Shown here piece by piece: positions 1-22,925 of a stretch of DNA of 25,795 bases (positions are counted from its first letter, which is position 1; the number at the start of each line of letters is the position of its first letter). Made by a program: the position numbers and the translations under genes. The notes below the pieces were generated by a model, which saw only the letters and a list, made by a program, of their open reading frames with translations, searched no databases and was not told where the DNA came from. Location of the stretch: positions 1 to 25,795 of the IMG/VR virus record IMGVR_UViG_3300028553_000147; one strand, 5' to 3'. The DNA is from a virus.

Positions 1-162
1 TGCGTTGGCTGTTGTTGCAAATGATACTGCTCCGCTTACGTTAGCACCTGCTACTGCGTTGGCTGTTGTTGCAAATGATACTGCTCCGCTTACGTTAGCA
101 CCTGCTACTGCGTTGGCTGTTGCTGCGAACGGTACTTCACCGGTTACATTAGCACCGGTGAT
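1..162 (-). repeat. 54-bp tandem repeat in fibre gene
   Basis: Positions 1-54 and 55-108 are identical, and 109-162 is a diverged third copy. The 54-bp unit equals 18 codons, so copy number can change without breaking the frame. It encodes the VAGANVSGAV... fibre unit. More copies may lie beyond the left edge. Confidence 0.9.
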
Positions 163-1074
163 TGATGAAAGAGAAGAACCATTACCACTTACGTTGGTGA
201 ACACACCTTGTGTTGCGCCGATGTTACCTACGTTAGCATTACCTGTACCAGTATTCAATGTACCTGCAACATTGACACCTGTTCCCGTAACAACTACAAC
301 ACTAGCATTGCCTGCTACTGAGATTGCCACGTTTCCTGAAGCAACAGGAATGTTGACATTTGATGTACCGTTTGCAAGCGTAGGACCAGGAACAGCGACA
401 ACACCAGTTAAGTTTGAGCCGTCACCTTTTAGAAACTGTGCTTGAATGATACCTGAGTTAGCGTAAACATTAGAAGCAGTAACGTTGGACGAGAATACTC
501 CGGCACCCGCACCAATATTACCTACGTTAGCGTTACCTGTTACAGTTAATGCTCCGGTAAGAACTCCGTTGTTTGCGCCAATATTACCTACGTTAGCATT
601 CCCGGTAACACTTAATACTCCGGCAGTTGTAAGATTTCCACCTGTAATATTTCCGACTGCGGTAATAGTATTAGATGATGCAATGTTTAGATTAGCAGTA
701 ATATAGTTAGCAACTACGCCATTTGCTAGTGAAAGGTTAGTTATATTAGCAACATTAGCCGGCAAGTCGATGAATAGGGTTTGTGAAGAATTAGTTAGGG
801 TAGCGTACTGTCCGCCGTTGGCACTCACCCCAATACTTAACGTATTAGTGAAAACTTGAACGTTTGAAATATTTGCATTGACTACTACGTTACCGTATGG
901 AGAACTGACAGTAATACCCAAACCGGGTGTTCGGTTGACTGAGACAACTCGCTGTGCAGAAATTCCAGAGAATAGTTCTGTAAAGTTTTCCTGAACTTTT
1001 TGGAATGCAGAGCGAATTGCATCTGCATTTGGATCGTTAGGAAACGTACCGAAATCAATATTTTGTTGTGCCAG
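1..1074 (-). CDS. Tail fibre protein, N-terminal part (partial, CTG start)
   Basis: The minus-strand frame is open from about 1074 to the left edge and gives a protein of at least 358 residues that begins (M)AQQNIDFGTFPNDPNADAI. This is followed by a Gly/Asn/Val/Ala-rich repetitive shaft with recurring VTGNANVGNIGA units and, at the edge, 18-residue units of the VAGANVSGAVSFATTANA type. Such shafts are typical of phage tail fibres and adhesins, which bind the host surface. No ATG, GTG or TTG lies between the upstream in-frame stop and the conserved-looking start. A good Shine-Dalgarno (GGAG) sits eight to nine bases before a CTG at 1072-1074, so CTG is taken as the start. A late promoter lies at 1111-1118. 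The C terminus is outside the window. The fibre role rests on composition and repeats rather than a catalytic or binding motif. Confidence 0.75.
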   Translation of the reverse strand, partial: MAQQNIDFGTFPNDPNADAIRSAFQKVQENFTELFSGISAQRVVSVNRTPGLGITVSSPYGNVVVNANISNVQVFTNTLSIGVSANGGQYATLTNSSQTLFIDLPANVANITNLSLANGVVANYITANLNIASSNTITAVGNITGGNLTTAGVLSVTGNANVGNIGANNGVLTGALTVTGNANVGNIGAGAGVFSSNVTASNVYANSGIIQAQFLKGDGSNLTGVVAVPGPTLANGTSNVNIPVASGNVAISVAGNASVVVVTGTGVNVAGTLNTGTGNANVGNIGATQGVFTNVSGNGSSLSSITGANVTGEVPFAATANAVAGANVSGAVSFATTANAVAGANVSGAVSFATTANA

Positions 1075-1110
1075 GGGAATTTCTCCTATAGGTTTACTAT
1101 TCTACCACAG

Positions 1111-1118
1111 TATTTATC
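1111..1118 (-). promoter_or_regulatory. T4-type late promoter for the fibre gene
   Basis: The minus strand reads GATAAATACTG, close to the T4 late consensus TATAAATACTATT used by the gp55 sigma factor. It lies 36 bases upstream of the fibre start and leaves room for the GGAG ribosome site. Confidence 0.7.
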
Positions 1119-1150
1119 TTTTCAGTACAGTTCTCTGTGTGGCTATGCAG

Positions 1151-1187
1151 GGAAAACAAAAGCGGGTAGTAGTTTCCTACAGCCCGC
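1151..1187 (-). terminator. Intrinsic terminator after the 1110-aa gene
   Basis: On the minus strand a GC-rich hairpin has outer arms GCGGG and CCCGC, a two-base mismatch, inner arms GTAG and CTAC, and a GAAA tetraloop. It is followed by TTTTGTTTT. It lies 37 bases past the stop of the 1110-aa gene and upstream of the fibre promoter, separating the two transcription units. Confidence 0.75.
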
Positions 1188-1223
1188 CTCGTTTAGTTTT
1201 AGTCGTCTTTGTCACTTGGGCGG

Positions 1224-4200
1224 TCACCCAATGTCATCATCTCCATTGAGACCTGCTAGCCTTTTCATTTCTGAGACCGACTGCCAGAACGCCGCCGGCT
1301 TTTCGCGATAAAACCATCGGTTAAAAGACTTATGGGAAGAGCAATAGCGTACGATGCTAAAAGCACTGAAGCCGGTGTCGGCAGCAATTTTTAAGGCGAG
1401 GTCATTAGCTTCGCCTATAAGCGTTTGATACCTGGCGCCGTCCTCTTCGTCTTCCATCTGGCTTACTTTTGCTGTTAGCGCGTCATAGAGAGGATGGTTG
1501 TCGATTTCGGGATATTCACCGCCGTCGTCTGCGTTTCTACCTCCACGAAGTGATTTAATATGCGATTCAATATTCTCATTAATGCTAGTAGTGTCGTGTG
1601 AAGTTAGTCTGTTAAGCTGTGAAGCAACAACAGGAACAGTAGTCTGACCAGTTGACTTAGGCTTGTTCAACCCACCTGAAATGACCTTAGTCATGAATTC
1701 AATGTCTTGTTCAAACGAAGCATCAGTTCCCTTACCAGGACCCTTACCTATTTGATTTGCCCACTCATCAACTTTTTCTTTCTTGTCTTTCTTGTCATCG
1801 TATTCAATGTCTTTGGTAACTTTCTTACCAGCCTTTTCAGCCTTTTCATCCTTATCAGCAGTTGATTCTTCTGACAACATTGCTAATTTCTTATAAAGAT
1901 CCATAAATGATTCTTTGACATTATCGTCTTCTTCTGCATCGTCCCAACGCTTATCATCTGCGTCTGGATCAGGATACGCCGGCTCATCTTCAGGTTCTTC
2001 GTCCTTGACTCTACGCAGGGCCGGCGGGAAGACATCAGCCATGTTCTTTTCATATTCTTTCTTACGCATGAATGCAGGAACCTTGCCGTCTTCGGCGGCA
2101 TCTATGTCCATCCAAGGTTCTAATTCTTCTTGGACAGATTGATCTTGCATTCCATCTTCGATATCTTGGCCTGCATCTGCCGTTGCTAATGCTTGATTAG
2201 CGGCTGCATTACCCTGAGTGTCATTAGTTGCATTAGCTGCACCGCTGTCCGGGGCATTAGCTTCAGCGACCCCGAATTCCAGTTGGTCCGGGCTTTGAAC
2301 TTCGTCTAATGCTTCGTCGTGTCCGCCGCACTTTGATTCCATCATGCCGCATTCATCGCAACGTGCCTCTGACACATTTTCTTCTTCGTCATCACACCCG
2401 CAATCTTCTTCTTCTTCGTAGTCAGCATTAGGACCTTCGATGCCCGATAGCTTCTTCATAAGACCTAGCATACCGTCATGATCATCAACGACTTCAATGC
2501 CACCCGGAGAGTTGATTTCTGAACGTCCGCCTACTTCAGGTGAACCATAATCAGAACCTTCGTCTCCGCCGAAGATTCCCATACCTGCTTGCTTTACTAG
2601 AGAAAGCAACTTGTCTGCTTCAGCATCAGTCGCATTTACGTTTACTGAATCCGGTGAATTTGATTCACCCTTAGAGATTGAAACAGAAAATCCTTCTTTG
2701 ATGAGAGAATTAAGCTGTCTGTCCCATGCTTCAAATGCGAAGTCACCTTCTCCTAATTTAGAATCATAGCTAGAACGATCAGTGAATGATTTTCCACCGA
2801 CTGAGAACTTGCCGCCCTTTGGAGTTCTTGCGAGAGCGCCAGTGAACGCATTGCCTTCTTCCATGTCATCTTCAGGTAACACACCTTTTGGTTTACCTAG
2901 TGGATAATTAGGATAACCTGGCTCTCCCTTTTTCATTGCTATGTAGTCATTTGGGGACCTAGCAATCTCGCCTGGTTTACGACGACCTAGTACGTCTTGC
3001 GGTCTTGAGTTATCAGGTTTATAAGAGAACATTTCATCCATGTCGATCATCTCATCGAGCGGAGTGTCTAGAGAGTTTTGGGCCATGCCGCGTGTTGTAG
3101 CTGGCATACGAGCTTCTCTCTTTAAGAAACTTACGACCGGTGCTTGACGGATATCCATGCCGTGAAGTTCATCAAGACCTTCTTTGTATCCTTCATGATA
3201 CGCTCTGGCCTCTTCCATGTCAGCGTGCTTACCTGCATAAGCGTGGCCCTTGAGACCGTGCGACTTGCCCTCTAAGCGGGCGGCCTGAATTCCATGATTC
3301 ATAGATTCATCTACTTTTTTCTTTTTAGTTTTCTTTGACTCAGATGTTGTCGTATAGAAATCATCATCTTCATCGTCGCCGCCGTCTATAAGACGTTGGG
3401 CCGAGTCCACCATAGTAAACATGCTTTTACCTAGATAGCTATGGTCTTCACTAACAGCCATTATAATGTGAGGATACCAGTATGAACTTGCTCTGCCTTC
3501 TTCTGTTGTGCCACTAACTAAACTCATTGCATTTCTAGCAAGTTCTTTAATTTCTTCAGCCATGTCTAGAAGCTCATATCCAATATCACTGGTATCACCT
3601 GCAGCTTCGTTAACTGCCTTTTTCTTTTTATCGACTGCTGCCTTCTTCATTGGTTCTTTCCTATTACCGTCTTTGTCGAGGTCTAAGAAGTCTGGCTTCT
3701 TACCTTCAAGAGTTGTTGCACTGCGACCAGCACCCAAACCTGCTCCACGCGTGTCAATCCCGCTTGTTGGTGCAATGTCACCTTCTTTAACTTTTTTCTT
3801 ATTCTTATTGTCAAGCATTCCGCGCTTGTTAGCAGTTGCCCAAGCAATGTTTTCTGCTTCGTCTTTGCTCTTGCCTAATTTCTTTTCAGACTTTTCAATG
3901 TGCTTGACCATGCGATCAACTTTTGCGCCTTCGTCAAGATTCTCATCCGAAGGCTGGGCTACGTACGGGTATTTCTTTCGAATCATGATATTATATGCAG
4001 CATCCTTAGCTTGTCTAGCTCTATTTTGCTTGTGTGCATCACCTGGCTTAGACTTAAAAGCTGCCCGATCTAGCATATAATCAAGTTCTTTGGCATTGTA
4101 CTTGTTGAATTTTTCTTCAGCTTCATCGCCGGTGTTTGCTTCGTCAAATTCTTCTTCTTGCATTGTTTGATTAGGCTGATTGCTAGCCTGCATAGGCTGA

Positions 4201-4556
4201 AGTGACTTCTGTTGTGATTGTTGCTGATTTGATTGTTGCTGCCCTGGTTGTGTTTGTCCAGGAGCTTGAACGATTTGAACGTCATTTGGACCAAGTTTCG
4301 ACAACATTCCCTGAATAGTAGAATCTTTACTTGTTAAAACCCCTGCGCCAACTTGCTTATTAGTTGGATCCATAACTGGAAGTGGTTTGGCTCCAGCAGG
4401 AATAGCTTCATGCAACTCTTTGAACACATCTTTCAGTGATCTCTTTGTTGTAGTTGCTACGGGTGCAGGCGAAGACTCATTAAGTACCTGCCTAGTCTTA
4501 GGAGCAGGCAATGCTTCTAGCTGGCTCATTTTGTTTAATAAGTCTTTCATGCTCAT
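1224..4556 (-). CDS. Large charged protein of unknown function, candidate prohead-core or capsid-associated
   Basis: This 1110-residue protein matches no enzyme family I recognise. Visible parts in order are an N terminus MSMKDLLNKMSQLE, a Gln-rich stretch near residues 100-132, a Lys-rich segment with KSKDEAENIAWATANK (about 230-243), and an EF-hand-like loop DLDKDGN near 292-298 followed by KEPMKKAA. Further on come several very acidic tracts, a Cys/His cluster (CGCDDEEE, CDECGMMESKCGG) in the middle, and a C terminus with SEMKRLAGLNGDDD. The KPDFLDLDKDGN and EMKRLAG motifs are ones I associate with structural or core proteins of marine T4-like phages, from memory. Several (L/I)xE triplets, for example LNE at 25-27 and LDE at 207-209, could be gp21-type protease sites. 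It follows the 208-aa gene by four bases, and its Shine-Dalgarno AGGA overlaps that gene's stop codon, so the two are probably co-translated. Confidence 0.7.
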   Translation of the reverse strand: MSMKDLLNKMSQLEALPAPKTRQVLNESSPAPVATTTKRSLKDVFKELHEAIPAGAKPLPVMDPTNKQVGAGVLTSKDSTIQGMLSKLGPNDVQIVQAPGQTQPGQQQSNQQQSQQKSLQPMQASNQPNQTMQEEEFDEANTGDEAEEKFNKYNAKELDYMLDRAAFKSKPGDAHKQNRARQAKDAAYNIMIRKKYPYVAQPSDENLDEGAKVDRMVKHIEKSEKKLGKSKDEAENIAWATANKRGMLDNKNKKKVKEGDIAPTSGIDTRGAGLGAGRSATTLEGKKPDFLDLDKDGNRKEPMKKAAVDKKKKAVNEAAGDTSDIGYELLDMAEEIKELARNAMSLVSGTTEEGRASSYWYPHIIMAVSEDHSYLGKSMFTMVDSAQRLIDGGDDEDDDFYTTTSESKKTKKKKVDESMNHGIQAARLEGKSHGLKGHAYAGKHADMEEARAYHEGYKEGLDELHGMDIRQAPVVSFLKREARMPATTRGMAQNSLDTPLDEMIDMDEMFSYKPDNSRPQDVLGRRKPGEIARSPNDYIAMKKGEPGYPNYPLGKPKGVLPEDDMEEGNAFTGALARTPKGGKFSVGGKSFTDRSSYDSKLGEGDFAFEAWDRQLNSLIKEGFSVSISKGESNSPDSVNVNATDAEADKLLSLVKQAGMGIFGGDEGSDYGSPEVGGRSEINSPGGIEVVDDHDGMLGLMKKLSGIEGPNADYEEEEDCGCDDEEENVSEARCDECGMMESKCGGHDEALDEVQSPDQLEFGVAEANAPDSGAANATNDTQGNAAANQALATADAGQDIEDGMQDQSVQEELEPWMDIDAAEDGKVPAFMRKKEYEKNMADVFPPALRRVKDEEPEDEPAYPDPDADDKRWDDAEEDDNVKESFMDLYKKLAMLSEESTADKDEKAEKAGKKVTKDIEYDDKKDKKEKVDEWANQIGKGPGKGTDASFEQDIEFMTKVISGGLNKPKSTGQTTVPVVASQLNRLTSHDTTSINENIESHIKSLRGGRNADDGGEYPEIDNHPLYDALTAKVSQMEDEEDGARYQTLIGEANDLALKIAADTGFSAFSIVRYCSSHKSFNRWFYREKPAAFWQSVSEMKRLAGLNGDDDIG

Positions 4557-4560
4557 TGTC

Positions 4561-5187
4561 TTATCCTTTATGTGCGCCGGTTTGCGGCTTTGCCGGTCTT
4601 GAAATCTTGCTCATCGGGCTATCTTTACCCATTGATGCAAACTGAGTTTCTGGTTTGAACGGATCAAATGCATTCGGTGTCTTAGTACCTGAATAAGGAA
4701 TGTCCATCTTGTCGTCTTTAGTTTGCTCTTTGATGCTGTCTAGATATGAATTGCCATATGCTTTGGCTGCTTCTTTAGCACCAGGCTGTTCTTCCATTTC
4801 TTCGTGGGTAAGAACAGGGCTATGCTTCATCTCGTTCTCATACCCATCTAATTCACTGTTAATGCTATCGTCATACGAAGTCTTAACAACACGAACATAG
4901 TCTACGTTGTGTCCAAGCAACTGCGCCATTTGCTGAATCATTGGCTCATTTGCAGGGTAGCGGAACTTGCCCTTGATGATTGTAACCGATTGGTTAGCTA
5001 GATTCGGAAAACCGTATGGGTCCTTCTGAATCGGGGTTGATTTGGGGGTTGAGAGTTCAACTGGATCAAACTTCTTGAGATTGAAAAGGAAGAGTTCTAA
5101 GAAATTCTTAGTAACGTCTCCGGCAATCTTAATCGTGTAATCATATGTATGCACCGACTCAGAAATATAGTGTCTTAGATTTTTCAT
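4561..5187 (-). CDS. Putative capsid-internal or core protein with a targeting-like N terminus
   Basis: This 208-residue protein belongs to no family I can name. It starts MKNLRHYISESVHTYDYTIK. The first ten residues resemble the capsid-targeting peptides of T4 internal proteins (MKTYQEFIAE), which the gp21 protease cuts after (L/I)xE; here ISE is followed by S. The middle (TIKIAGDVTKNFLELFLFNLKKFD) looks like a compact alpha/beta domain, and the C-terminal third is Pro/Lys-rich and probably disordered. A ribosome site AGAGG lies eight bases before the ATG and a late promoter at 5215-5222, so late expression with virion proteins is expected. The downstream neighbour is the 1110-aa charged protein. 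Packaging inside the head is an inference. Confidence 0.65.
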   Translation of the reverse strand: MKNLRHYISESVHTYDYTIKIAGDVTKNFLELFLFNLKKFDPVELSTPKSTPIQKDPYGFPNLANQSVTIIKGKFRYPANEPMIQQMAQLLGHNVDYVRVVKTSYDDSINSELDGYENEMKHSPVLTHEEMEEQPGAKEAAKAYGNSYLDSIKEQTKDDKMDIPYSGTKTPNAFDPFKPETQFASMGKDSPMSKISRPAKPQTGAHKG

Positions 5188-9430: not shown

Positions 9431-12400
9431 TTAAGCCTGATTGCCTAGTTCACCGGTGTTCAGAATACGAACTGGGATATAGATGAACTCGACAGCCTTA
9501 ACAGGCTCGATAGCACAGTCTACCCAAAGCTCATTTCGGTCGATTCTAGCCGGGGTATTGTTTGACTCATCGCAGACGACCAAGAAGTCGTAAACGCCGC
9601 GCTTCGCAACAAGATCAACAAAGAGTGACTGGATAACTCCAGTAATCTGTTGACGAGTTAGTGAATCGTTGGGTTCGAATACGAATGGTCTTGCAGCAAG
9701 TGTCAATTGACGACGGATGTAAGCTACAAGTCTTGCTACGTTAACTCGATCAAGCGCAGATTGTGATGCAAAGCTTGTCTTATTACCGTAGTTCAACAAC
9801 CCGTTACCGGTAAAGAACACGAGTGGGTTGATTTCATTAGTGTAGAGTACGTCACGTAGACCGATGTTGGTCTTGAATGCTTGGAACTCACCGGTTACTG
9901 AGTTAATGTAGCCGATGTTCGTCGCATTGTCGATGATACCGCGTCGAGTTCCTGCTGGTGCGAACCAAGGGAAAGCAACAGTGTCGTTACGCAGAATAGT
10001 TCTGATCATCATGTGCGATGGGGGAACTGCAACAAGGTTTCCGCTCAAGTCTGAAGTGATACCTGAAGGGTAGAACAAGCCCATATAACTGTTGCGACTG
10101 ACGAGACCGAGTTCACCGGTCGAGTCAGCATTGGCATCATTGTTTGCCCATGCAGCGATTGCAGTTGCATCAGGTGGAAGTCTCATCGGAGTATCACCGA
10201 TAATGAAGCCAGTGTCACCTCTGTCGTTGTTAAGTACAATCATGTTAGGCTGCAATTCAGCATAGTTTGGTGTAGCAATCAAGTTGAACTCGTTGTCTTC
10301 GTCACGAATTGCAGTGTTAGTATCAATTACTTCTCTCAGTGACTTGACGACCATGTTGCGTTGCGCTTGACGACCCATATAAGGTGAACCGTTTCCTTTC
10401 AGTCCTGATACACTCACCCACGCAGCAGTTACAGTTGGCAAGACCATGTCAGGGAAACGAATGCTATTAAAGTAGTTAGTGCGATACTGCTTGACGTTAT
10501 ATCCTGAGCGACGAGTGTTGAACAACAACATACCTACTGGGTAGGTTGAGTTTTCCGGGGCGTCTAAATCAAGATAGTCGCTAGATAGCAAGCTCTTGAT
10601 GCTTGGGATAGGGTCATTTGCAGGACTTGTAGTGCCGTTAATTGCCCAACGTGCGTCTGCGAACAATACACCAGCCGGTGAAGTTTGATCAGCATTATCA
10701 ATCAATACCCACTGATCTGTGCCGTCCTTGGACTGCCAACGATTGATCAATGGGTAGTTCTCAAGATCAGAAGTGTTGATCCAGATGTCACCGTATGCTA
10801 GAGCAGTACTATCTGATTGTAGAGTTGGTGCGGTCGCAGCAATCAACGGACCATTAGGGTCAGTTGTGTTCGATCCGGATGGTAAGGGGAAGCCACTTGA
10901 ATTGTAGTTTACATTTTTGTAACCCTGCCAACCTGATGAGGTGTTTACCATGATATCTACTTCATCAACAACTGAATAGAACCAGTTAGTGAGGTCTGCT
11001 GGCGCTACAGTAGGAGCACCTTCGTTAGCAGTCATGTTAAATTCTACCCAGTTAGAAAGCTGAGTAGTGTACATTAACGATCCTTGACCGGAGTAATATT
11101 GAATTGAAGTTACAACACCTCCCACACTTACGCTCGTCACAATAACTTCCAGATCGTTGGCTCCGTCCGCGCCGCCTAATTCGTCACCGGGGAATGTGAC
11201 GACCTCACCTACTACATAACCGGTTCCTGCAGCATCGAAGGCAAGACTGTCTACTTGGTAGTTTTGGTAGCTGTTATTTACATTTGGAATCAAGCCAGTT
11301 CCTGATCCTGTAGTAGAACTCTGCACTGGGTTGAAAACAAGATCGTAGAAGAACGGACCTTCTTTAACGCCTTGGGTAACACCGATATCGAAACCTGCTT
11401 CTGACATCAAGCCCGTGCTGAAGCCAGTTGTTTGATTCAGATCGTTAACAACAATCACGCCGCCCTGAGTGTGCTGGATTTGAATCTCACCGGTATCTAG
11501 CACAACTGCGCTAGTGAAGGGTGCACCTGCCGACGACCATGCTGTAACAAAGTCACTTGCATCTGTGTTATCGGCTAGTGTCATTGTGTAGGGTGAGCTT
11601 AGTGAGCTTGAGCCAGGAATCGAGGTTTGAATAGTTACTGTGTATGGTCCTGCCGTGAATGAAGGGCTGGTATTAGTGCCGGTAACGATAGTTGCGCCTG
11701 CTGCAATCCGTTCCCAATAATAGATTGGGGCGACGGGTGCAGTTGATGGCATCGAATTAGCAGGGTTATAATTAAAGTTATACTGTGCATAGACACTTCC
11801 TGCAGGAATTGCCTTCCCGCCGGTCGCGTCAATAGCACCAATTGCTTGCCAGTCGCTGTTTGCAAAGCTAGGAGTTTCCGGAACCCAAACTGAACTCAAG
11901 CCGTTCCACTGTGAAATTACAGGATTGTAGCCATTGCCTGCTGCGCCGATCTTGATCCAAACTGAACCAGATGGTCTTGGATAAGTCTGACCAGATTGCC
12001 ATAGCGGCTGCTGGGAAGAAGTACCATAGAACACTGCGGGCTGATAGTACGTACCTGCGGCGATTCCTAAATCAGCTAGCACTGTGCCTAGACCAGCAGC
12101 AATCGTAATATAGGGAGGAGTAGTTTTAGTAACGGCCTGTCCTGTCTGCGCTGAATAAATCTGCAACTTGCCGTCAACTACGGCTGCTGATAGAGATGGA
12201 ATATCCAAATTGTTGATCGATGCAGCAATGATTGAAACTACATTGTTTGGATTACCCTGAACAGTGATAGTTTGGGCGGGGGCTCCGTTGACTGAAATAG
12301 TGAATGTGTTAGTAGCCGTCAACGTTGGATTTGCATTTGAACCTTGGATGGTTGGATTTGCAACTAACCAATCAGAATCTCCAACTCTTGTCCAAGTGTT

Positions 12401-13030
12401 ATTAGATGCCTTGAAGAAATACATGCCTGAAGTTGAAGCACTTGGGTAATCGTAGGTTGGGATTGCGATAACTGCATATTGCCCGATCGACCCGATGCTC
12501 TGTATAGGGTAACCACCGGATATTTGTGTAGAGTCAGTAATCACGATTGGAGTTTGAAGGCCGAACTGTCCTGTTGAAGCATTAAAGGCATAGATACCCC
12601 AAGTTGAAGTAGCTGAGTCTAACCACCAAGTGCCATCTGCAGGTGAACCAGTTGGACGAACTGTCTCACCAACCAAAGCTGCAAGATCAATGTCTGCTCT
12701 CAAAGTGTAAACCCGATTAGTCACACCGAGTGCAGAATAAGCAGCAAGAAGCCCGTACTCATTGAGTTCATAACCCTGAATAGGAGTACCGGCTGACGTA
12801 GTATAGAAGAATGGATTACCGTATAGAGTGACAAGATCACGCTGACTAGTAACTTGATAGAGCTTACCGGCATTAGCAGGAAGTGTCCCGGCTGCTACAG
12901 CAGTTCCTGTAGGATCGGCTTTGTTGCTTGCTGTAGCAAACACGATGAGTGGGATAGAGTTAGTTGGAGCTGGAAGATACTGACTTTGATCAATGATCGT
13001 AACTTCTACACCTGGTGAATTTAATGGCAT
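9431..13030 (-). CDS. 18: Tail sheath protein gp18, greatly enlarged
   Basis: The start is MPLNSPGVEVTIIDQSQYLP, the usual gp18 opening, with AAAGGAAA as ribosome site; the in-frame start 36 bases upstream lacks this. At 1199 residues it is nearly twice T4 gp18 (659). Residues 1 to about 135 and roughly the last 380 (from YLDLDAPENSTYPVGMLLFN through VSGLKG...MGRQAQRNM, VAFPWFAPAGTRRGI, INPLVFFTGNG and FVFEPND...) are typical sheath sequence, including the C-terminal polymerisation domain ending CAIEPVKAVEFIYIPVRI. Between lies an insertion of more than 600 residues with several Trp-containing units (WWLDSATSTWGIYAFN, YFFKASNNTWTRVGDSDW, DIWINTSDLENYPLINRW), probably beta domains displayed on the outer surface. 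The sheath contracts to drive the tube through the envelope. It precedes gp19 as in T4. Confidence 0.92.
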   Translation of the reverse strand: MPLNSPGVEVTIIDQSQYLPAPTNSIPLIVFATASNKADPTGTAVAAGTLPANAGKLYQVTSQRDLVTLYGNPFFYTTSAGTPIQGYELNEYGLLAAYSALGVTNRVYTLRADIDLAALVGETVRPTGSPADGTWWLDSATSTWGIYAFNASTGQFGLQTPIVITDSTQISGGYPIQSIGSIGQYAVIAIPTYDYPSASTSGMYFFKASNNTWTRVGDSDWLVANPTIQGSNANPTLTATNTFTISVNGAPAQTITVQGNPNNVVSIIAASINNLDIPSLSAAVVDGKLQIYSAQTGQAVTKTTPPYITIAAGLGTVLADLGIAAGTYYQPAVFYGTSSQQPLWQSGQTYPRPSGSVWIKIGAAGNGYNPVISQWNGLSSVWVPETPSFANSDWQAIGAIDATGGKAIPAGSVYAQYNFNYNPANSMPSTAPVAPIYYWERIAAGATIVTGTNTSPSFTAGPYTVTIQTSIPGSSSLSSPYTMTLADNTDASDFVTAWSSAGAPFTSAVVLDTGEIQIQHTQGGVIVVNDLNQTTGFSTGLMSEAGFDIGVTQGVKEGPFFYDLVFNPVQSSTTGSGTGLIPNVNNSYQNYQVDSLAFDAAGTGYVVGEVVTFPGDELGGADGANDLEVIVTSVSVGGVVTSIQYYSGQGSLMYTTQLSNWVEFNMTANEGAPTVAPADLTNWFYSVVDEVDIMVNTSSGWQGYKNVNYNSSGFPLPSGSNTTDPNGPLIAATAPTLQSDSTALAYGDIWINTSDLENYPLINRWQSKDGTDQWVLIDNADQTSPAGVLFADARWAINGTTSPANDPIPSIKSLLSSDYLDLDAPENSTYPVGMLLFNTRRSGYNVKQYRTNYFNSIRFPDMVLPTVTAAWVSVSGLKGNGSPYMGRQAQRNMVVKSLREVIDTNTAIRDEDNEFNLIATPNYAELQPNMIVLNNDRGDTGFIIGDTPMRLPPDATAIAAWANNDANADSTGELGLVSRNSYMGLFYPSGITSDLSGNLVAVPPSHMMIRTILRNDTVAFPWFAPAGTRRGIIDNATNIGYINSVTGEFQAFKTNIGLRDVLYTNEINPLVFFTGNGLLNYGNKTSFASQSALDRVNVARLVAYIRRQLTLAARPFVFEPNDSLTRQQITGVIQSLFVDLVAKRGVYDFLVVCDESNNTPARIDRNELWVDCAIEPVKAVEFIYIPVRILNTGELGNQA

Positions 13031-13071
13031 GTCATTTTTCCTTTGTATGATTTTGAGGTTTACCACCTGCC

Positions 13072-15892: not shown

Positions 15893-16084
15893 TTAATTAG
15901 GTAAGATCGTTGCGGGTGGAGGTCCACAACGTTTGAACTCGAACTCACCATTTATTGGATTATACTGAGCAACGTCGTGTTCAATAGCATCTGTTTGTAA
16001 ATTTGCAACAGTCATCAAACGACCCAAAGTAAGTCCCAGCGCAAGGCTGCACAGAAACAATGCAATAATAAGTAGCTTGTTCAT
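15893..16084 (-). CDS. Small membrane-anchored protein, 63 aa
   Basis: The protein begins MNKLLIIALFLCSLALGLTL, a single hydrophobic segment (residues 4-20) after a short basic start, which is a signal anchor or uncleaved signal. The polar remainder (about 21-63) would face the periplasm and ends GPPPATILPN. A Cys at 12 is inside the hydrophobic core but not in a lipobox. Its ATG overlaps the TGA stop of mazG as ATGA, so it is translated by coupling within the same early operon. Function is unknown; similar small early membrane proteins in phages are often host-interaction or superinfection factors, which is only a possibility here. Confidence 0.65.
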   Translation of the reverse strand: MNKLLIIALFLCSLALGLTLGRLMTVANLQTDAIEHDVAQYNPINGEFEFKRCGPPPATILPN

Positions 16085-16494
16085 AGATCGCCATCCCTGC
16101 GGTTCTCACTATAGTGAGCATCAAACTTACCGCCGGGATATCGGTCTTGTAGCTTATGCACGTTTTCTGCAAGCACTTCATTAGGATCAAGCCCAAGAGC
16201 GTTGCAAGCATTAACCCAGTACCAAGCAATGTCACCTAGTTCACGCTTCATATGGAAGATGTTGTCTTCGTTAAGCGGTTTACCTTGGAACAATACCTTC
16301 TTCACGATCTCCTGAAACTCGCCGCCTTCACTGCCGAGTCCAGTGCTTGCAGTCATAAGCAATGCAAGATTGACATTGGTGCTAGCGTCAAGCTCTTGAA
16401 GACGCTCGATAAGTGCAGCAAGGTCCTTGCTTGGTCCAGAGCATACAGTCAGAACGAAATCTGCGTATTTGTTTAAATCAATTCGGTTTGTCAT
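16081..16494 (-). CDS. mazG: MazG-type nucleotide pyrophosphohydrolase
   Basis: The 137-residue protein starts MTNRIDLNKYADFVLTVCSG, preceded by AAAGGAAA. It carries the all-alpha MazG signature: GSEGGEFQEIVKKVLFQ (EGGE metal ligands, about 54-59), and ELGDIAWYWVNACNALGLDPNEVLAENVHKL (ExxD ligands about 86-89). It ends RYPGGKFDAHYSENR, as in phage MazG proteins. MazG hydrolyses (d)NTPs to monophosphates and in T4-like marine phages is thought to shape nucleotide or alarmone pools. It lies ten bases after the 416-aa gene, overlaps the 63-aa gene and is probably transcribed from the sigma70-type promoter at 17787-17815. Confidence 0.9.
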   Translation of the reverse strand: MTNRIDLNKYADFVLTVCSGPSKDLAALIERLQELDASTNVNLALLMTASTGLGSEGGEFQEIVKKVLFQGKPLNEDNIFHMKRELGDIAWYWVNACNALGLDPNEVLAENVHKLQDRYPGGKFDAHYSENRRDGDL

Positions 16495-16504
16495 ATATTT
16501 CCTT

Positions 16505-17755
16505 TTAAAATGCCTTGAGAATGATAAGATCAGCATTGAAGCGCCCGTTCGGCACAGCTTCAACAGCTTTGATCTCCTTGAAATACTTACGTGCAGCGGG
16601 CCTGCTGCCGACAAGAGCCTTGATCTGTTCAGCGGGCTTACGCAGCGTCTTAATGCTGCTCTCGCGCGTGTCAAATCCAAGAAGCGTGTTGCCCTTAACG
16701 ATCAGACAGTTGCTATACTGATCTGCAACGTAATGGTGCATCTTGCGCTTACGAGTGTCGTAGACCCAAGCCTCCTGTGCATTGTGCAGCTTCTCAGGGG
16801 ACAGACCCACAAGATCCAGCTTGAGAACCTCATCCTTGAAGGACCTGAGATGCTTCAACCTAGAAACGACCTTAGCAATCGGAACTGCTTTGCGAATCCT
16901 CGGAGCACGATCTGCTTTCTTAATTCCAATGTATGCAGTCAAGTTTTCAATGATTTGGTCTGCAAACTTGATGTTGTTGTTAATCTGAGTGCGAGTGTAC
17001 TTCGCATAGGCCTCGTTCAATTGAGGACACTTGCCTTCTTTAGCTTCCTCATACTCAGCCTTGAGAGCTTCCCAATGCTTGATGTAATTGTTGATATGTT
17101 GAGGGAGAACCTTCTGTTCATTCAAGAATCCCATGATTGCATCTTTAGTTGGGAATTCTTTAGGGCAACCCGCAAGCAGATACTCATCAGCAAGAACTTC
17201 AATTTCACCAAAAGCGTCACGCGCCCGTTCACGCATCCGCTCTTGGATGTTCTGACGGAACACGGGCTTCGCAGCCTTAGCAGCTTCCACTTTCTTTTCT
17301 TCTTCGACAATCTTGGCACCATCCGAGATTGCTGCCGCGACACGGTCCTTGATGAACGTAGTCATAGGATTCAGAACGGGACCCGTGCCCGGAAGTGCTT
17401 CCCAATAGTCTGCTTCTGCTTGATTATGATCAGGGCAACCGGTGTGCAACAGCTTGCAAGTGATCGCATGCCAAACGTTGAGCGAATGAATACCCTTCGG
17501 GGCTTTAGCGTTGCGAATGTCTTGTGCGGAGTAGTTGTTATCCTTCATCCACTTCCAAATCTCAGGGAGCAGATCAGCTTCCTGAAAATTCTCATAGTAG
17601 AAATACTTTGCGTTGGTCTTGAACTTGTTGAACTGCTGGCCAGTCATTTTCTCCCAGCCAGTGAAGTCAGGACCAACCATTTTCTTGCCGCGACGAATCG
17701 GGGCAGCACGAGCGACTTTCTTTTTGGTCTTAACAAGAGAGGGACGACGAGCCAC
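16505..17755 (-). CDS. Basic protein of unknown function, 416 aa
   Basis: I do not recognise an enzyme motif. The first 30 residues are strongly basic (MARRPSLVKTKKKVARAAPIR), suggesting nucleic-acid contact. The middle is helical and Lys/Glu-rich (KIVEEEKKVEAAKAAKP, IQERMRERARDAFGEIE), with KHWEALKAEYEEAKEGKCPQ following. The C-terminal part has a compact repeated beta pattern (AWVYDTRKRKMHHYVAD, LIVKGNTLLGFDTRESSIKTLR) that resembles conserved hypothetical proteins in aquatic T4-like phages, from memory. The start has a strong TAGGAG site. It is the first gene after a consensus sigma70-type promoter and leads the operon with mazG, so it is likely made early. A DNA- or RNA-binding early role is an inference. 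Confidence 0.75.
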   Translation of the reverse strand: MARRPSLVKTKKKVARAAPIRRGKKMVGPDFTGWEKMTGQQFNKFKTNAKYFYYENFQEADLLPEIWKWMKDNNYSAQDIRNAKAPKGIHSLNVWHAITCKLLHTGCPDHNQAEADYWEALPGTGPVLNPMTTFIKDRVAAAISDGAKIVEEEKKVEAAKAAKPVFRQNIQERMRERARDAFGEIEVLADEYLLAGCPKEFPTKDAIMGFLNEQKVLPQHINNYIKHWEALKAEYEEAKEGKCPQLNEAYAKYTRTQINNNIKFADQIIENLTAYIGIKKADRAPRIRKAVPIAKVVSRLKHLRSFKDEVLKLDLVGLSPEKLHNAQEAWVYDTRKRKMHHYVADQYSNCLIVKGNTLLGFDTRESSIKTLRKPAEQIKALVGSRPAARKYFKEIKAVEAVPNGRFNADLIILKAF

Positions 17756-18030: not shown

Positions 18031-18555
18031 TTAGGTAATGCGATGAGCATGGTATTTGTCAACGTTGACCCCGCGAGAAACCCACTCTAGGTTTTCAGGG
18101 TGAAAGTTAAGGTGGTTGTGGTCTATATGATTTGCTTCCCAATATTGCGAATCAAAATGATTCTTCACTGACTTAGGAGTCAACTCCCATTCAGCCTCAG
18201 TGACTCCATCTGGAATAGGATAATCATGAAATGTTTGTGCAACGATCTGGTGAATATGGACAGTTAGGCTATTCCCCCACGCATCCACAACCACCTTAAC
18301 TTTAGGATATTTGCTTTTTCCAGTCACTCTGTTGTTGAGGATACGGAAATTCAAGCATCGCTTCCCCAACAGTGATGGATAGCTTTTATCAACCCAAATA
18401 TAATTGTATCCTTTTCGGAAGCTAGCGAGTTTTAATGTATTATCGATGTGTAGGAAAAAGTAGTAACCTTCTAGCGGTTTACCCCGATACATCGCTTGAT
18501 AAAATGGTCGATTATAATCATCATAGAACTCTGGCTTGCACTTGTATGTAGACAT
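18031..18555 (-). CDS. HNH homing endonuclease, 174 aa
   Basis: The C-terminal stretch YWEANHIDHNHLNFHPENLEWVSRGVNVDKYH (about 138-169) is the HNH_3-type core: NHID for the first His, N...NL for the middle part and the final Asn-Lys. Upstream lies VKVVVDAWGNSLTVHIHQIVAQTFHDYP, the usual beta-hairpin and HxxVAxTF segment that precedes HNH_3 domains. The N-terminal 70 residues are beta-rich and not recognised. MSTYKCKPEF at 18555 is taken as the start; a GTG 45 bases upstream is possible. A TTGACA-containing promoter-like site lies at 18591-18619. The gene is inserted between the 39-aa gene and the TA-like pair. Confidence 0.82.
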   Translation of the reverse strand: MSTYKCKPEFYDDYNRPFYQAMYRGKPLEGYYFFLHIDNTLKLASFRKGYNYIWVDKSYPSLLGKRCLNFRILNNRVTGKSKYPKVKVVVDAWGNSLTVHIHQIVAQTFHDYPIPDGVTEAEWELTPKSVKNHFDSQYWEANHIDHNHLNFHPENLEWVSRGVNVDKYHAHRIT

Positions 18556-18590
18556 TCTTTTCAATCTTTCATTTCTGTTATTGATTCTGA

Positions 18591-18619
18591 ATGCTAACAC
18601 CGTCCTATACGACTGTCAA
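18591..18619 (-). promoter_or_regulatory. Probable sigma70-type promoter for HNH gene
   Basis: The minus strand has a perfect TTGACA (18614-18619), 17 bases and TAGCAT (18591-18596), a weaker -10 box. An AATAAATA octamer overlapping the stop of the 149-aa gene (18640-18647) could serve as a late promoter. Confidence 0.5.
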
Positions 18620-18638: not shown

Positions 18639-19088
18639 CTATTTATTTTGGTTTTTATACCGCGCTTGATCTTTGTAGCTTTTTGGCTTTTTAGGTTCAG
18701 GTTCTTTTGGTGCGGCAGGCATTGGTTCAAATGACTGATTAGCCATTGTCGTTGCTACATTTTGTTGACGCCTATAGTTAGCGGGTTGACCGGTACCCAA
18801 TTCGTCATGCTTGAATAACCCGTAAAGCTTGAGGATAGCAGGATCTTTTCCTGATATGGTATAACACAAGTTCATGTCATGCATCAGATGAGCATGGCGG
18901 AGTTTAGGAACTTTTCCAGTGAAGTGCCCGGCGTTTCTAAAAGCAACGTCTCTGGATCCAAAAGGTTTAGTAGGATCTTGTGCTTTGGTGTCGATGAAAT
19001 CATCAAGTAACTTGCGAAGTTCGGGATGAGACCTTGCCTTTTCAGAAAAAGTATCCCTGAATAATTTACACCATTGACCGTCCAGCAT
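18639..19088 (-). CDS. Putative RelE/YafQ-like toxin-fold protein, 149 aa
   Basis: After a helical N-terminal part (RDTFSEKARSHPELRKLLDDFIDTKAQDP, about 11-39) comes a segment KLRHAHLMHDMNLCYTISG, then ILKLYGLFKHDELGTGQP (about 62-102). This order, a His-rich strand, a hydrophobic 'YxI' strand and a final LYGxFxHDELG strand, is like the RelE/YafQ toxin fold (HxxxDWLLIY...LxLxxTGTHSDL), whose members cleave mRNA on the ribosome. The last 45 residues are Pro/Lys-rich and likely disordered. It follows the 61-aa gene with TAA directly abutting ATG, the arrangement of toxin-antitoxin pairs. Catalytic residues cannot be fixed without a structure model. It may instead be a virion or regulatory protein. 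Confidence 0.6.
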   Translation of the reverse strand: MLDGQWCKLFRDTFSEKARSHPELRKLLDDFIDTKAQDPTKPFGSRDVAFRNAGHFTGKVPKLRHAHLMHDMNLCYTISGKDPAILKLYGLFKHDELGTGQPANYRRQQNVATTMANQSFEPMPAAPKEPEPKKPKSYKDQARYKNQNK

Positions 19089-19274
19089 TTAATCAAACCA
19101 AGAGTTGATGGTTGCCTTGAGTTGATCGGCCGGAACAGGCTTCGACCATTCGTTTTTCTCCTCAGCTTCAACGATCTTTACCAGATCCTCAGTGAGAAAT
19201 CCAGTGTCATTGGTAGCATCGATAGCTTCAGTGAGGGCTTGCTTTTTCGAGATAGTAACTTCGTTGATTTTCAT
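19089..19274 (-). CDS. Small acidic partner protein, 61 aa, antitoxin-like position
   Basis: The protein MKINEVTISKKQALTEAIDA... is acidic, mostly helical and ends LKATINSWFD. The small size, charge, first-gene position and abutment to the toxin-like 149-aa gene fit an antitoxin, although no DNA-binding motif is visible. The start also resembles the short MKxxxxxIS leader of phage core proteins (compare the 208-aa protein), which is a competing reading. A GAGG ribosome site precedes the ATG. It has both a sigma70-type promoter (19309-19337) and a GATAAATA late promoter (19293-19300), so it could be expressed throughout infection. Confidence 0.6.
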   Translation of the reverse strand: MKINEVTISKKQALTEAIDATNDTGFLTEDLVKIVEAEEKNEWSKPVPADQLKATINSWFD

Positions 19275-19292
19275 ATGATGTTCCTCTGAAAT

Positions 19293-19300
19293 TATTTATC
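19293..19300 (-). promoter_or_regulatory. Late promoter for the 61-aa/149-aa pair
   Basis: The minus strand reads GATAAATAATT, 18 bases before the ATG and upstream of the GAGG ribosome site. Confidence 0.6.
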
Positions 19301-19308
19301 TGTAATTC

Positions 19309-19337
19309 AATATAACAAAACGGGCGGTCGATGTCAA
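19309..19337 (-). promoter_or_regulatory. Sigma70-type promoter for the 61-aa/149-aa pair
   Basis: The minus strand has TTGACA (19332-19337), a 17-base spacer and TATATT (19309-19314). It is divergent from the gp14 late promoter only 22 bases away. Confidence 0.8.
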
Positions 19338-21139: not shown

Positions 21140-22516
21140 ATGGCCCAATTTTTCTACGACAATCAGGTCCGTCGTTTTCTGATTCAATTTGCCAAGATAT
21201 TTTCAAACTGGTATGTCACCAGAGGCAAGGATCCTAATGGTAATGACATCCTAGTGCGTATACCAATCATGTACGGAGATTCAAGTAGACAAGCAGCTAC
21301 TATCATTGCTAACAATTCTGCTAGTAATCTTCCGTCGGCACCTTTGATTACATATTACATCACCGGGATTGAGTATAATCAGAAATGGACACAGGATCCT
21401 ACGTTTGTAGATAAACTAAACGTTAGACAACGTTCATACAATCAAGAGACACAAAGCTACGAGACTACCCAAGGACAAGCGTTTACTGTTGAACGCCTCA
21501 TGCCTGTTCCATATACGCTACGAGTTAATGTAGACTTTTGGACTACTAACTACCAGCAGAAGCTAGAAATCTTTGAACAGTTGGCAACTCTATTCAACCC
21601 TGCTCTTGAAATACAAAGCACTGATAACTTTATTGATTGGACTTCGTTGTCCGCAGTATTCCAAGACGGTATAACATTCTCAAGCAGAACTATTCCAGTC
21701 GGAACCAGCAACCCCATTGATGTTATGACTTGGAAGTTCTATATGCCTATCTGGATCAGCACTAGCTCCAAGCTCAAGAAGATGGGAGTCATCGAAAAGA
21801 TCATCGCTTCTATATACAAAGGTTCTGCACTACTGGACGTTCAAGACGATCAGTTGTTGCTTGGTACTAGGCAAAAGATTACCCCGTACGGTTATAAAGT
21901 GTTGTTGTTAGGTAACAAGCTACAATTGCTTCCTGCTAATGAAGCATTTAATCCATCCAACGCCGCATTAGCGTTGCCCGACAGTCCTAATACTAATCTA
22001 TATTGGTCTGCTCTGTTAAACGTATACGGTGCAGTTAAGCCCGGCATCTCTCAGATTTGGCTACAGAATCCATATATGGATTATGACATTGTAGGCACGA
22101 TTGTCCCTGACCCAAACGATGATAGATTCTTGATCTATAACATCGACCAAGACACTCTACCCCAAAACACGCTAGCACCCGTGAACAGTATCATTAATCC
22201 CCAGTTAACAGGTCCCAACGCAGGATTGCCTGGCCCGATGCCGGGAGTAAGATATCTAATCGTAGAAGATATCGGCAGCGAGGGTGCTACTACTGTTTCA
22301 TGGGGCGGGTTGGTTGCCAATGCCAATGACATCATTCAGTTTAACGCTGATACAGGTCAATGGTTCGTATCTTTTGACTCTCAAGCCGCAACTACAGTGC
22401 AGTTTGTCACGAACTTAGTCACAAGCGTACAATATCGATACGTGAATGCTGATGGGATGTGGATGAAAAGTTTTGAGGGATGGTATGATCAAGGCGATTA
22501 TAGCATCGTCATCTAA
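21140..22516 (+). CDS. 15: Tail sheath stabiliser and completion protein gp15, enlarged
   Basis: The opening MAQFFYDNQVRRFLIQFAKIF, then SNWYVTRGKDPNGNDILVRIPIMYGDSSRQ, parallels T4 gp15 (YFYNSSFRRYATLMGDLFSNIQIKR...KFIRVPITYASKE). So do TVERLMPVPYTLRVNVDFWTTNYQQKLEIFEQLATLFNPALEI and TWKFYMPIWISTSSKLKKMGVIEKI. gp15 caps the finished tail and binds the neck. At 458 residues it exceeds T4 gp15 (272) by a C-terminal extension after about residue 230 with beta-rich, Trp-poor sequence. It follows gp14 by nine bases with a weak ribosome site, so it is probably co-expressed. Confidence 0.88.
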   Translation: MAQFFYDNQVRRFLIQFAKIFSNWYVTRGKDPNGNDILVRIPIMYGDSSRQAATIIANNSASNLPSAPLITYYITGIEYNQKWTQDPTFVDKLNVRQRSYNQETQSYETTQGQAFTVERLMPVPYTLRVNVDFWTTNYQQKLEIFEQLATLFNPALEIQSTDNFIDWTSLSAVFQDGITFSSRTIPVGTSNPIDVMTWKFYMPIWISTSSKLKKMGVIEKIIASIYKGSALLDVQDDQLLLGTRQKITPYGYKVLLLGNKLQLLPANEAFNPSNAALALPDSPNTNLYWSALLNVYGAVKPGISQIWLQNPYMDYDIVGTIVPDPNDDRFLIYNIDQDTLPQNTLAPVNSIINPQLTGPNAGLPGPMPGVRYLIVEDIGSEGATTVSWGGLVANANDIIQFNADTGQWFVSFDSQAATTVQFVTNLVTSVQYRYVNADGMWMKSFEGWYDQGDYSIVI

Positions 22517-22925
22517 AATGTCTCATCAAGCAGCCGGCGTCTTCTTCTATAGCAAATCTAGTGCTAGATATCTGTATCTACTTAGGTCGGACATGAGGAA
22601 TCCAACGTGGAGTATTCCCGGAGGAAAACTTGAGGATAACGAAACATTGCTAGATGGAATTCAAAGAGAATGCACCGAAGAAATAGGGTTCTTCGACGCT
22701 GATCTAAAGTTTGTTCCTATTCAAAAATTCGTGAATAATACGTTCGTGTATCATACGTTCTTCTGCGAAGTAGAAGATGAGTTCATTCCTAAATTAAATG
22801 ATGAACATGTGGGCTATGCTTGGGTAGGAGATGGATTATACCCCAAACCGTTGCATCCCGGTTTGTTTAGTACTGTCAATATTGATGTTGTTCAAGAAAA
22901 ACTAGATATACTAACTGGTCAATGA
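22485..22925 (+). CDS. Nudix hydrolase
   Basis: The protein contains a complete Nudix box GKLEDNETLLDGIQRECTEE followed by IGF, matching Gx5Ex7REUxEExGU, with the Glu residues that bind Mg. Before it lies AAGVFFYSKSSARYLYLLRS and PTWSIPGGKL. Nudix enzymes split nucleoside diphosphates linked to other groups, for example damaged NTPs, ADP-ribose or RNA 5' caps; the substrate here is unknown. The ATG at 22485 has a GAGG ribosome site six bases upstream and overlaps gp15 by 32 bases; the ATG at 22518 (MSHQAAG) is an alternative one base after the gp15 stop. It is the last gene of the plus-strand unit and ends five bases from a convergent gene. Confidence 0.9.
   Translation: MIKAIIASSSKMSHQAAGVFFYSKSSARYLYLLRSDMRNPTWSIPGGKLEDNETLLDGIQRECTEEIGFFDADLKFVPIQKFVNNTFVYHTFFCEVEDEFIPKLNDEHVGYAWVGDGLYPKPLHPGLFSTVNIDVVQEKLDILTGQ

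Follow-up and report, generated by a model that had tools for sequence, protein, structure and literature searches.

Our results point to a small, strictly paired two-gene module of large T4-like phages in which a putative antitoxin (gene A) may serve to carry a RelE-like toxin (gene T) into the phage head. The module was found in the window, i.e., the whole stretch of DNA analysed here, which is a 25.8-kb fragment of an uncultivated T4-like myovirus. According to our best explanation, which we consider somewhat probable, A silences and packages T, the prohead protease removes A, and T is injected. We are slightly more hesitant about the wider reading, in which a toxin-antitoxin pair has become a weapon of the virion: its antitoxin would also be a capsid-targeting adaptor that is shredded by the prohead protease, which would arm a RelE-type RNase for injection into the next host. 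This reading falls just short of probable. The observations concern the fold of T, the pairing, the promoter pattern, the distribution of motifs, and the protease in the relatives. An earlier note on this DNA had proposed a toxin-antitoxin-like pair. That reading holds as regards the fold, the conserved two-gene module (sometimes fused) and the early and late promoters, but it missed the head-targeting features of A. In addition, according to the note, the toxin reading would be refuted if the 149-aa protein were detected in the virion; on the present evidence, T may be a toxin and a virion component at once.

Both genes lie on the minus strand. Gene A (positions 19089-19274) encodes an acidic protein of 61 aa (12 D/E vs 7 K), which is a putative antitoxin and may also act as a capsid-targeting adaptor and as a propeptide that the protease can degrade. 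Gene T (18639-19088) encodes a RelE/YafQ-fold protein of 149 aa that contains no L/I-x-E motif. The TAA of A abuts the ATG of T, as had been noted earlier, and in the window the two genes are in the same frame. Upstream of A on the minus strand, we read off a ribosome-binding site (AGAGGAA, 19281-19287), a T4-type late promoter box (GATAAATA, 19293-19300) 18 nt from the ATG, and a sigma70-type promoter (TTGACA-17-TATATT, 19309-19337). The sigma70-type promoter is near-consensus with 11 of 12 matches, has TG before its second hexamer, and ranks best among 22 in 7 kb. Thus, both promoters claimed in the earlier note are present.

The same arrangement was seen in the relatives. A late box ([ACG]TAAATA, at most 60 nt from the first start of the module) was found upstream of 36 of 40 modules vs 139 of 682 background genes (20%), and a sigma70-type promoter (at least 10/12 matches, at most 120 nt from the first start) was found ahead of 19 of 40 modules vs 107 of 682 other genes (16%). 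The window itself has 14 occurrences of ATAAATA vs 4.9 expected. The double promoter is a conserved property of the modules, and the late box is more conserved than the early promoter. The pair is probably expressed early from the sigma70-type promoter and late from the T4-type promoter. Judged by the promoter motif, late expression like that of a T4-type internal protein is predicted here, and late sites by themselves are no demonstration of packaging. Directly 3′ of T, there is an HNH endonuclease gene (18031-18600, minus strand), which has a separate sigma70-type site at 18619-18591 and a separate late box at 18646-18640. At the same spot, L002, a relative, has a different, zinc-finger-like HNH gene, and only the first codons (MLAFRINNRNERL) are common to both. 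This difference looks like homing-gene swapping.

The AlphaFold2 model of T, built with the family alignment (pLDDT 86.6, pTM 0.76), showed the helix and strand order of RelE, with the two N-terminal helices and the four-stranded sheet of the RelE/ParE superfamily (BECR fold). Among solved structures, 4lsy, a toxin of H. pylori, matched best (Z 11.5, 1.6 A over 86 aa, 27% identity). Escherichia coli YafQ (4ml0) gave Z 10.9, and the lower-ranked matches were other RelE, YoeB and ParE toxins. Foldseek and profile matches agree with this fold. For instance, the profile of the T family matched HP0892 (E = 0.004), and the segment LRHAHLMHDMNLCY...LKLYGLFKHDEL was aligned onto its counterpart. In a structure search of viral models, there was one close match (A0A8D4GM25, 35% identity). 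The RelE/YafQ-like order suspected in the earlier note was thus borne out by structure prediction, since the top PDB matches were RelE-superfamily toxins, and both motifs quoted there for the 149-aa protein are present.

YafQ requires H50, H63, D67, H87 and F91 (PMC6529426). Residues 65-71 of T (HAHLMHD, 18876-18896, minus strand) contain the counterparts of YafQ D61, H63 and D67, and H94 (18807-18809, minus strand) is the counterpart of the general acid H87. Among 46 toxins of the family, H65, H67 and D71 are each kept in 44, H94 is kept in all, and Y76 is near-invariant. Hence the catalytic residues H63, D67 and H87 correspond to the conserved H67, D71 and H94. However, the position of YafQ D61 is the near-invariant H65, that of F91 is the invariant G98, and nothing conserved corresponds to H50. 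G98 opens a family signature after the last strand, GTGQ (residues 98-101, 18786-18797, minus strand), in which G98 is kept in 46 of the 46 toxins and T99 and G100 in 45 each. In most comparisons, purifying selection acts on T. Pairs of relatives gave dN/dS values of 0.05-0.11 (T) and 0.12-0.34 (A), and the comparison of the window with L002 gave 0.54 (T) and 0.20 (A).

T stayed under every curated family cut-off. Pfam gave no match for A or T, PHROGs gave nothing usable for either, and NCBIfam gave for T a sub-threshold RelE/StbE match alone (residues 55-96). The window T did not match the YafQ family (TIGR00053, PF15738) at the curated cut-off; among 23 members of the T family, sub-threshold matches to it were found in 8 (best E 5e-4 and 0.015). 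We do not file T as YafQ. On the predicted structure, T is a divergent protein of the RelE/ParE superfamily outside the YafQ cut-offs, and it probably works like YafQ. The Pro/Lys-rich C-terminal tail (18642-18728, minus strand), to which the earlier note had drawn attention, is present in the window T, where the model has low confidence. Nevertheless, it is restricted to the closest relatives (the window, L002, L037 and weakly L035), and was rejected as a trait relevant to the family.

Relatives were gathered from IMG/VR using a degenerate DNA pattern of HDELGTGQP and then alignments of the finds. Many of them lie on contigs of 100-343 kb, and they reduce to the 46 toxins at <90% identity, all of which occur in uncultivated phage contigs. 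No relative turned up among cultured phages at either the nucleotide or the protein level (two chance matches at E 3-6), or among bacterial and archaeal genome contigs. In nearly all two-gene loci, an A-like gene ends close to the start of T (-8 to +3 as a rule). Furthermore, every newly found A gene with enough contig was followed by T or T sequence, and A was found only directly 5′ of T or fused with it. In large T4-like phages, the two genes are strictly linked and form a module, adjacent to each other like the co-transcribed antitoxin and toxin genes of a type II system. As no A without T was found, the idea that A works by itself as a chaperone that packages other cargo was set aside. One locus (L070:2600-3005) has a tandem pair of A-like genes ahead of one T.

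For an antitoxin, A looks unusual. It had no match to DNA-binding antitoxin families, although a protein this short may escape such a match. T4 gp21 cleaves head proteins after L/I-x-E, and the internal proteins of T4 have propeptides of 10-19 residues with L/I-x-E that target them into the head (PMC9026906). A starts with a capsid-targeting-like N-terminus (MKINEV, residues 1-6, 19257-19274), which is followed by prohead-protease-type sites at residues 14-16 (LTE, then A; 19227-19235), 27-29 (LTE, then D; 19188-19196) and 34-36 (IVE, then A; 19167-19175), all on the minus strand. The only invariant residues in the alignment of A are M1 and E16, and E16 ends an L-x-E motif that is usually followed by A, S or T. 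The site at 14-16 is deeper than the commonest CTS form in these phages (7-9) and lies inside the T4 propeptide range of 10-19. Thus, judged from its sequence, A has the targeting sequence and L/I-x-E of a T4-type internal protein. The A proteins of L060 and L070 are without a well-placed site. Alternatively, the LxE residues of A could be conserved for binding T.

L/I-x-E motifs are enriched in A, where 85 were counted vs 28.6 in shuffles (25/25 proteins), a comparison that overstates the independent evidence because shuffles ignore shared ancestry. T shows the reverse, 6 vs 12.5 expected in 22 proteins, and none of the six has A, S or G as the next residue. For the window pair, the counts are four in A (1.0 expected) and zero in T. 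As a yardstick, the gp22 scaffold of the same phages has 113 vs 47 expected and mature gp23 has 2 vs 14.8 expected; their gp23 propeptides have 8.8 per 100 aa. Meanwhile, 179 other small acidic proteins used as control have 53 vs 57 expected, and only one of them has a site at residues 8-20.

In some relatives, A and T form a single chain, or T is part of a longer protein. An LxE followed by A or S lies at the junction directly before the T domain in eight of nine such examples, from about six lineages: LTE|A (L044), LYE|A (L074, L186), LTE|S (L053), LAE|S (L164/L165), LNE|S (L029), LLE|A (L047) and LRE|A (L025). The exception is fusion L024, which is without a junction site. L044 and L074 retain little beyond the targeting-like N-terminus and the junction site. 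A profile of the fused clade matched only unrelated enzymes in the PDB. A single-chain model of A and T joined by read-through was confident within each part (pLDDT 89.4), but its pTM was 0.67 and the A-T contact is putative. Read-through of the A stop as a general route to fusion was rejected because most relatives have A and T in different frames. In addition, in L053 (positions 1-3522) an open frame of 1174 aa or more has the T domain close to its C-terminus, together with an amidoligase domain and a metallopeptidase-like motif (HELTH), and the fused gene of L025 adjoins an ART-PolyVal gene (sub-threshold, E = 4e-6). The window T is a single-domain protein, and the make-up of a polyvalent protein is seen only in relatives such as L053.

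A gp21-type protease is encoded in all five relatives of 251-343 kb, and the gp23 propeptides of the five large relatives bear L/I-x-E. The window fragment has no protease gene of its own, and the protease region lies outside it. In these five relatives, targeting-like starts (for example, MKLHQLFE|A and MRISELITE|S) were found in 44 of 244 genes with a late box vs 69 of 1847 others, and the N-terminus M[KR][ILVF]x[EDK][VILFM] in 30 of 244 vs 42 of 1847. The signal is limited to residues 4-23 (0.217 vs 0.02 over the next 20). Late CTS-like proteins beyond residue 30 have a whole-protein L/I-x-E count of 103 vs 110 expected; thus, L/I-x-E avoidance is no general mark of these proteins. The 44 late-box genes are candidates for head-packaged proteins on the basis of these motifs. 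They include amidoligase and cytidylyltransferase proteins, and we found no published virion data on amidoligase proteins in the literature. Across the five jumbo phages, this class includes L101, L108, L123, L197-L198, L218 and L229. Earlier work had already proposed that phages inject multi-domain effectors of this kind, among them RNases with this class of fold (PMC5512222).

Several other genes of the window were also recorded. The gene at 4561-5187 (minus strand, 208 aa) has a capsid-targeting-like start of the same pattern (MKNLRHYISE|S), and its counterparts in three large relatives start with MKNFLQHLTE, MKAFKAYLTE and MKTLHQYLAE. The gene at 1224-4556 (minus strand) encodes an acidic protein of 1110 aa with 13 L/I-x-E vs 9.9 expected; thus, a scaffold is not clearly indicated. 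There are also a very long tail sheath gene (9431-13066, minus strand, about 1200 aa) with a large insertion 5′ of the conserved C-terminal part, a MazG-type nucleotide pyrophosphohydrolase gene (16081-16680, minus strand), and a Nudix gene (22473-22925, plus strand) that overlaps a gp15-like gene.

It is known that stress proteases of the host remove antitoxins. For the module studied here, the sequence evidence suggests that the viral maturation protease may remove the antitoxin within the capsid, which would tie activation of the toxin to assembly. From the features above, we infer toxicity, A-T binding, packaging, cleavage and injection, i.e., every functional step. The fold and the conserved residues suggest that T would be a ribosome-dependent mRNA endonuclease. 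A bound to T would keep it silent in the producing cell, as the strict linkage and the natural fusions suggest. The N-terminus of A would then bring the A-T complex into the prohead core, a step modelled on the capsid-targeting sequences of T4 internal proteins. There, the gp21-type prohead protease would cut A at several L/I-x-E sites and leave T, which would be uncuttable, so that head maturation would substitute for host Lon/Clp in the release of T. Finally, T would enter with the DNA and hit host translation at once, and later fresh A made from the early promoter would restrain it. If this is true, large T4-like phages could block host translation ahead of any phage gene expression. Furthermore, a late box together with a short N-terminal targeting motif with L/I-x-E is a signature that flags dozens of candidate injected proteins per genome set.

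The main rival is an ordinary phage type II toxin-antitoxin system that acts in the infected cell only, where host proteases would degrade A and T would limit the translation of the host or of competing phages. The RelE/YafQ fold, the strict pairing, an A-T gene order like that of dinJ-yafQ, and the sigma70-type promoter ahead of many modules are what such a system would have. Nevertheless, we consider it unlikely, though by no means negligible. It leaves unexplained the enrichment of L/I-x-E in A and its depletion in T, the cleavable fusion junctions, the late boxes at 90% of the modules, and the presence of T within effector polyproteins, and A has no match to DNA-binding antitoxin families.

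Two further readings turn on what T itself does. T might be a ribosome-associated RNase like RegB that processes or clears particular phage or host mRNAs at the early-late switch, with A as its regulator. RegB is a T4 precedent for a BECR-fold RNase, and the RelE-superfamily RNase fold and the early and late promoters would suit this role; but RegB was described without a dedicated partner (PMC5512222). This reading accounts neither for the strict linkage of A nor for the LxE pattern, and we regard it as improbable. We give slightly less credit still to the idea that T no longer acts as an RNase and, on a retained RelE scaffold, serves inside the head as a structural or DNA-binding protein. 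The targeting evidence would be the same as for our best explanation, YafQ H50 and F91 are not conserved, and the tail of the window protein is basic and disordered. However, H65, H67, D71, H94 and Y76 hardly vary, and most comparisons show purifying selection on T. Our preferred explanation remains that T is silenced and packaged by A and is freed of it by the prohead protease.

Among known systems, YafQ and the HP0892/HP0894-type toxins of H. pylori resemble T in fold (Z 10.9-11.5), in antitoxin-toxin gene order, and in a CHxxxD-like motif and a terminal H. T lies under the curated cut-offs for YafQ and RelE/StbE. It differs from YafQ in the H50 and F91 positions, and from the YafQ/HP0892-type toxins in a K-P-G-D-F insert, the GTGQP signature, an extra C-terminal helix and strand, and its occurrence, so far, in phages only. 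T4 RegB is also a phage-encoded RelE-superfamily RNase, a likeness drawn from the literature and not from alignment; unlike the pair, it has no partner gene and is early only.

Meanwhile, IPI-IPIII and Alt of T4 share with the pair the late promoter, the short targeting-like N-terminus, the L/I-x-E site, and, as in the relatives of the pair, a gp21-type protease in the same phages. However, they carry the targeting sequence on the effector and have no antitoxin, whereas the two-gene versions here carry it on a separate partner, the putative antitoxin, and their packaging is predicted from sequence. Polyvalent proteins, including those with PBECR RNase domains (PMC5512222), are resembled by L053-type relatives, which join T with an amidoligase domain in a single long protein, and by L025 beside its ART-PolyVal gene; the PBECR family was absent among the Pfam matches, and the window version differs in being a small two-gene module. 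Finally, fused antitoxin-toxin BECR genes (PMC11980606) have their likeness in the single chains of L025, L024 and L047, but in most cases here a prohead-protease-type site lies at the junction.
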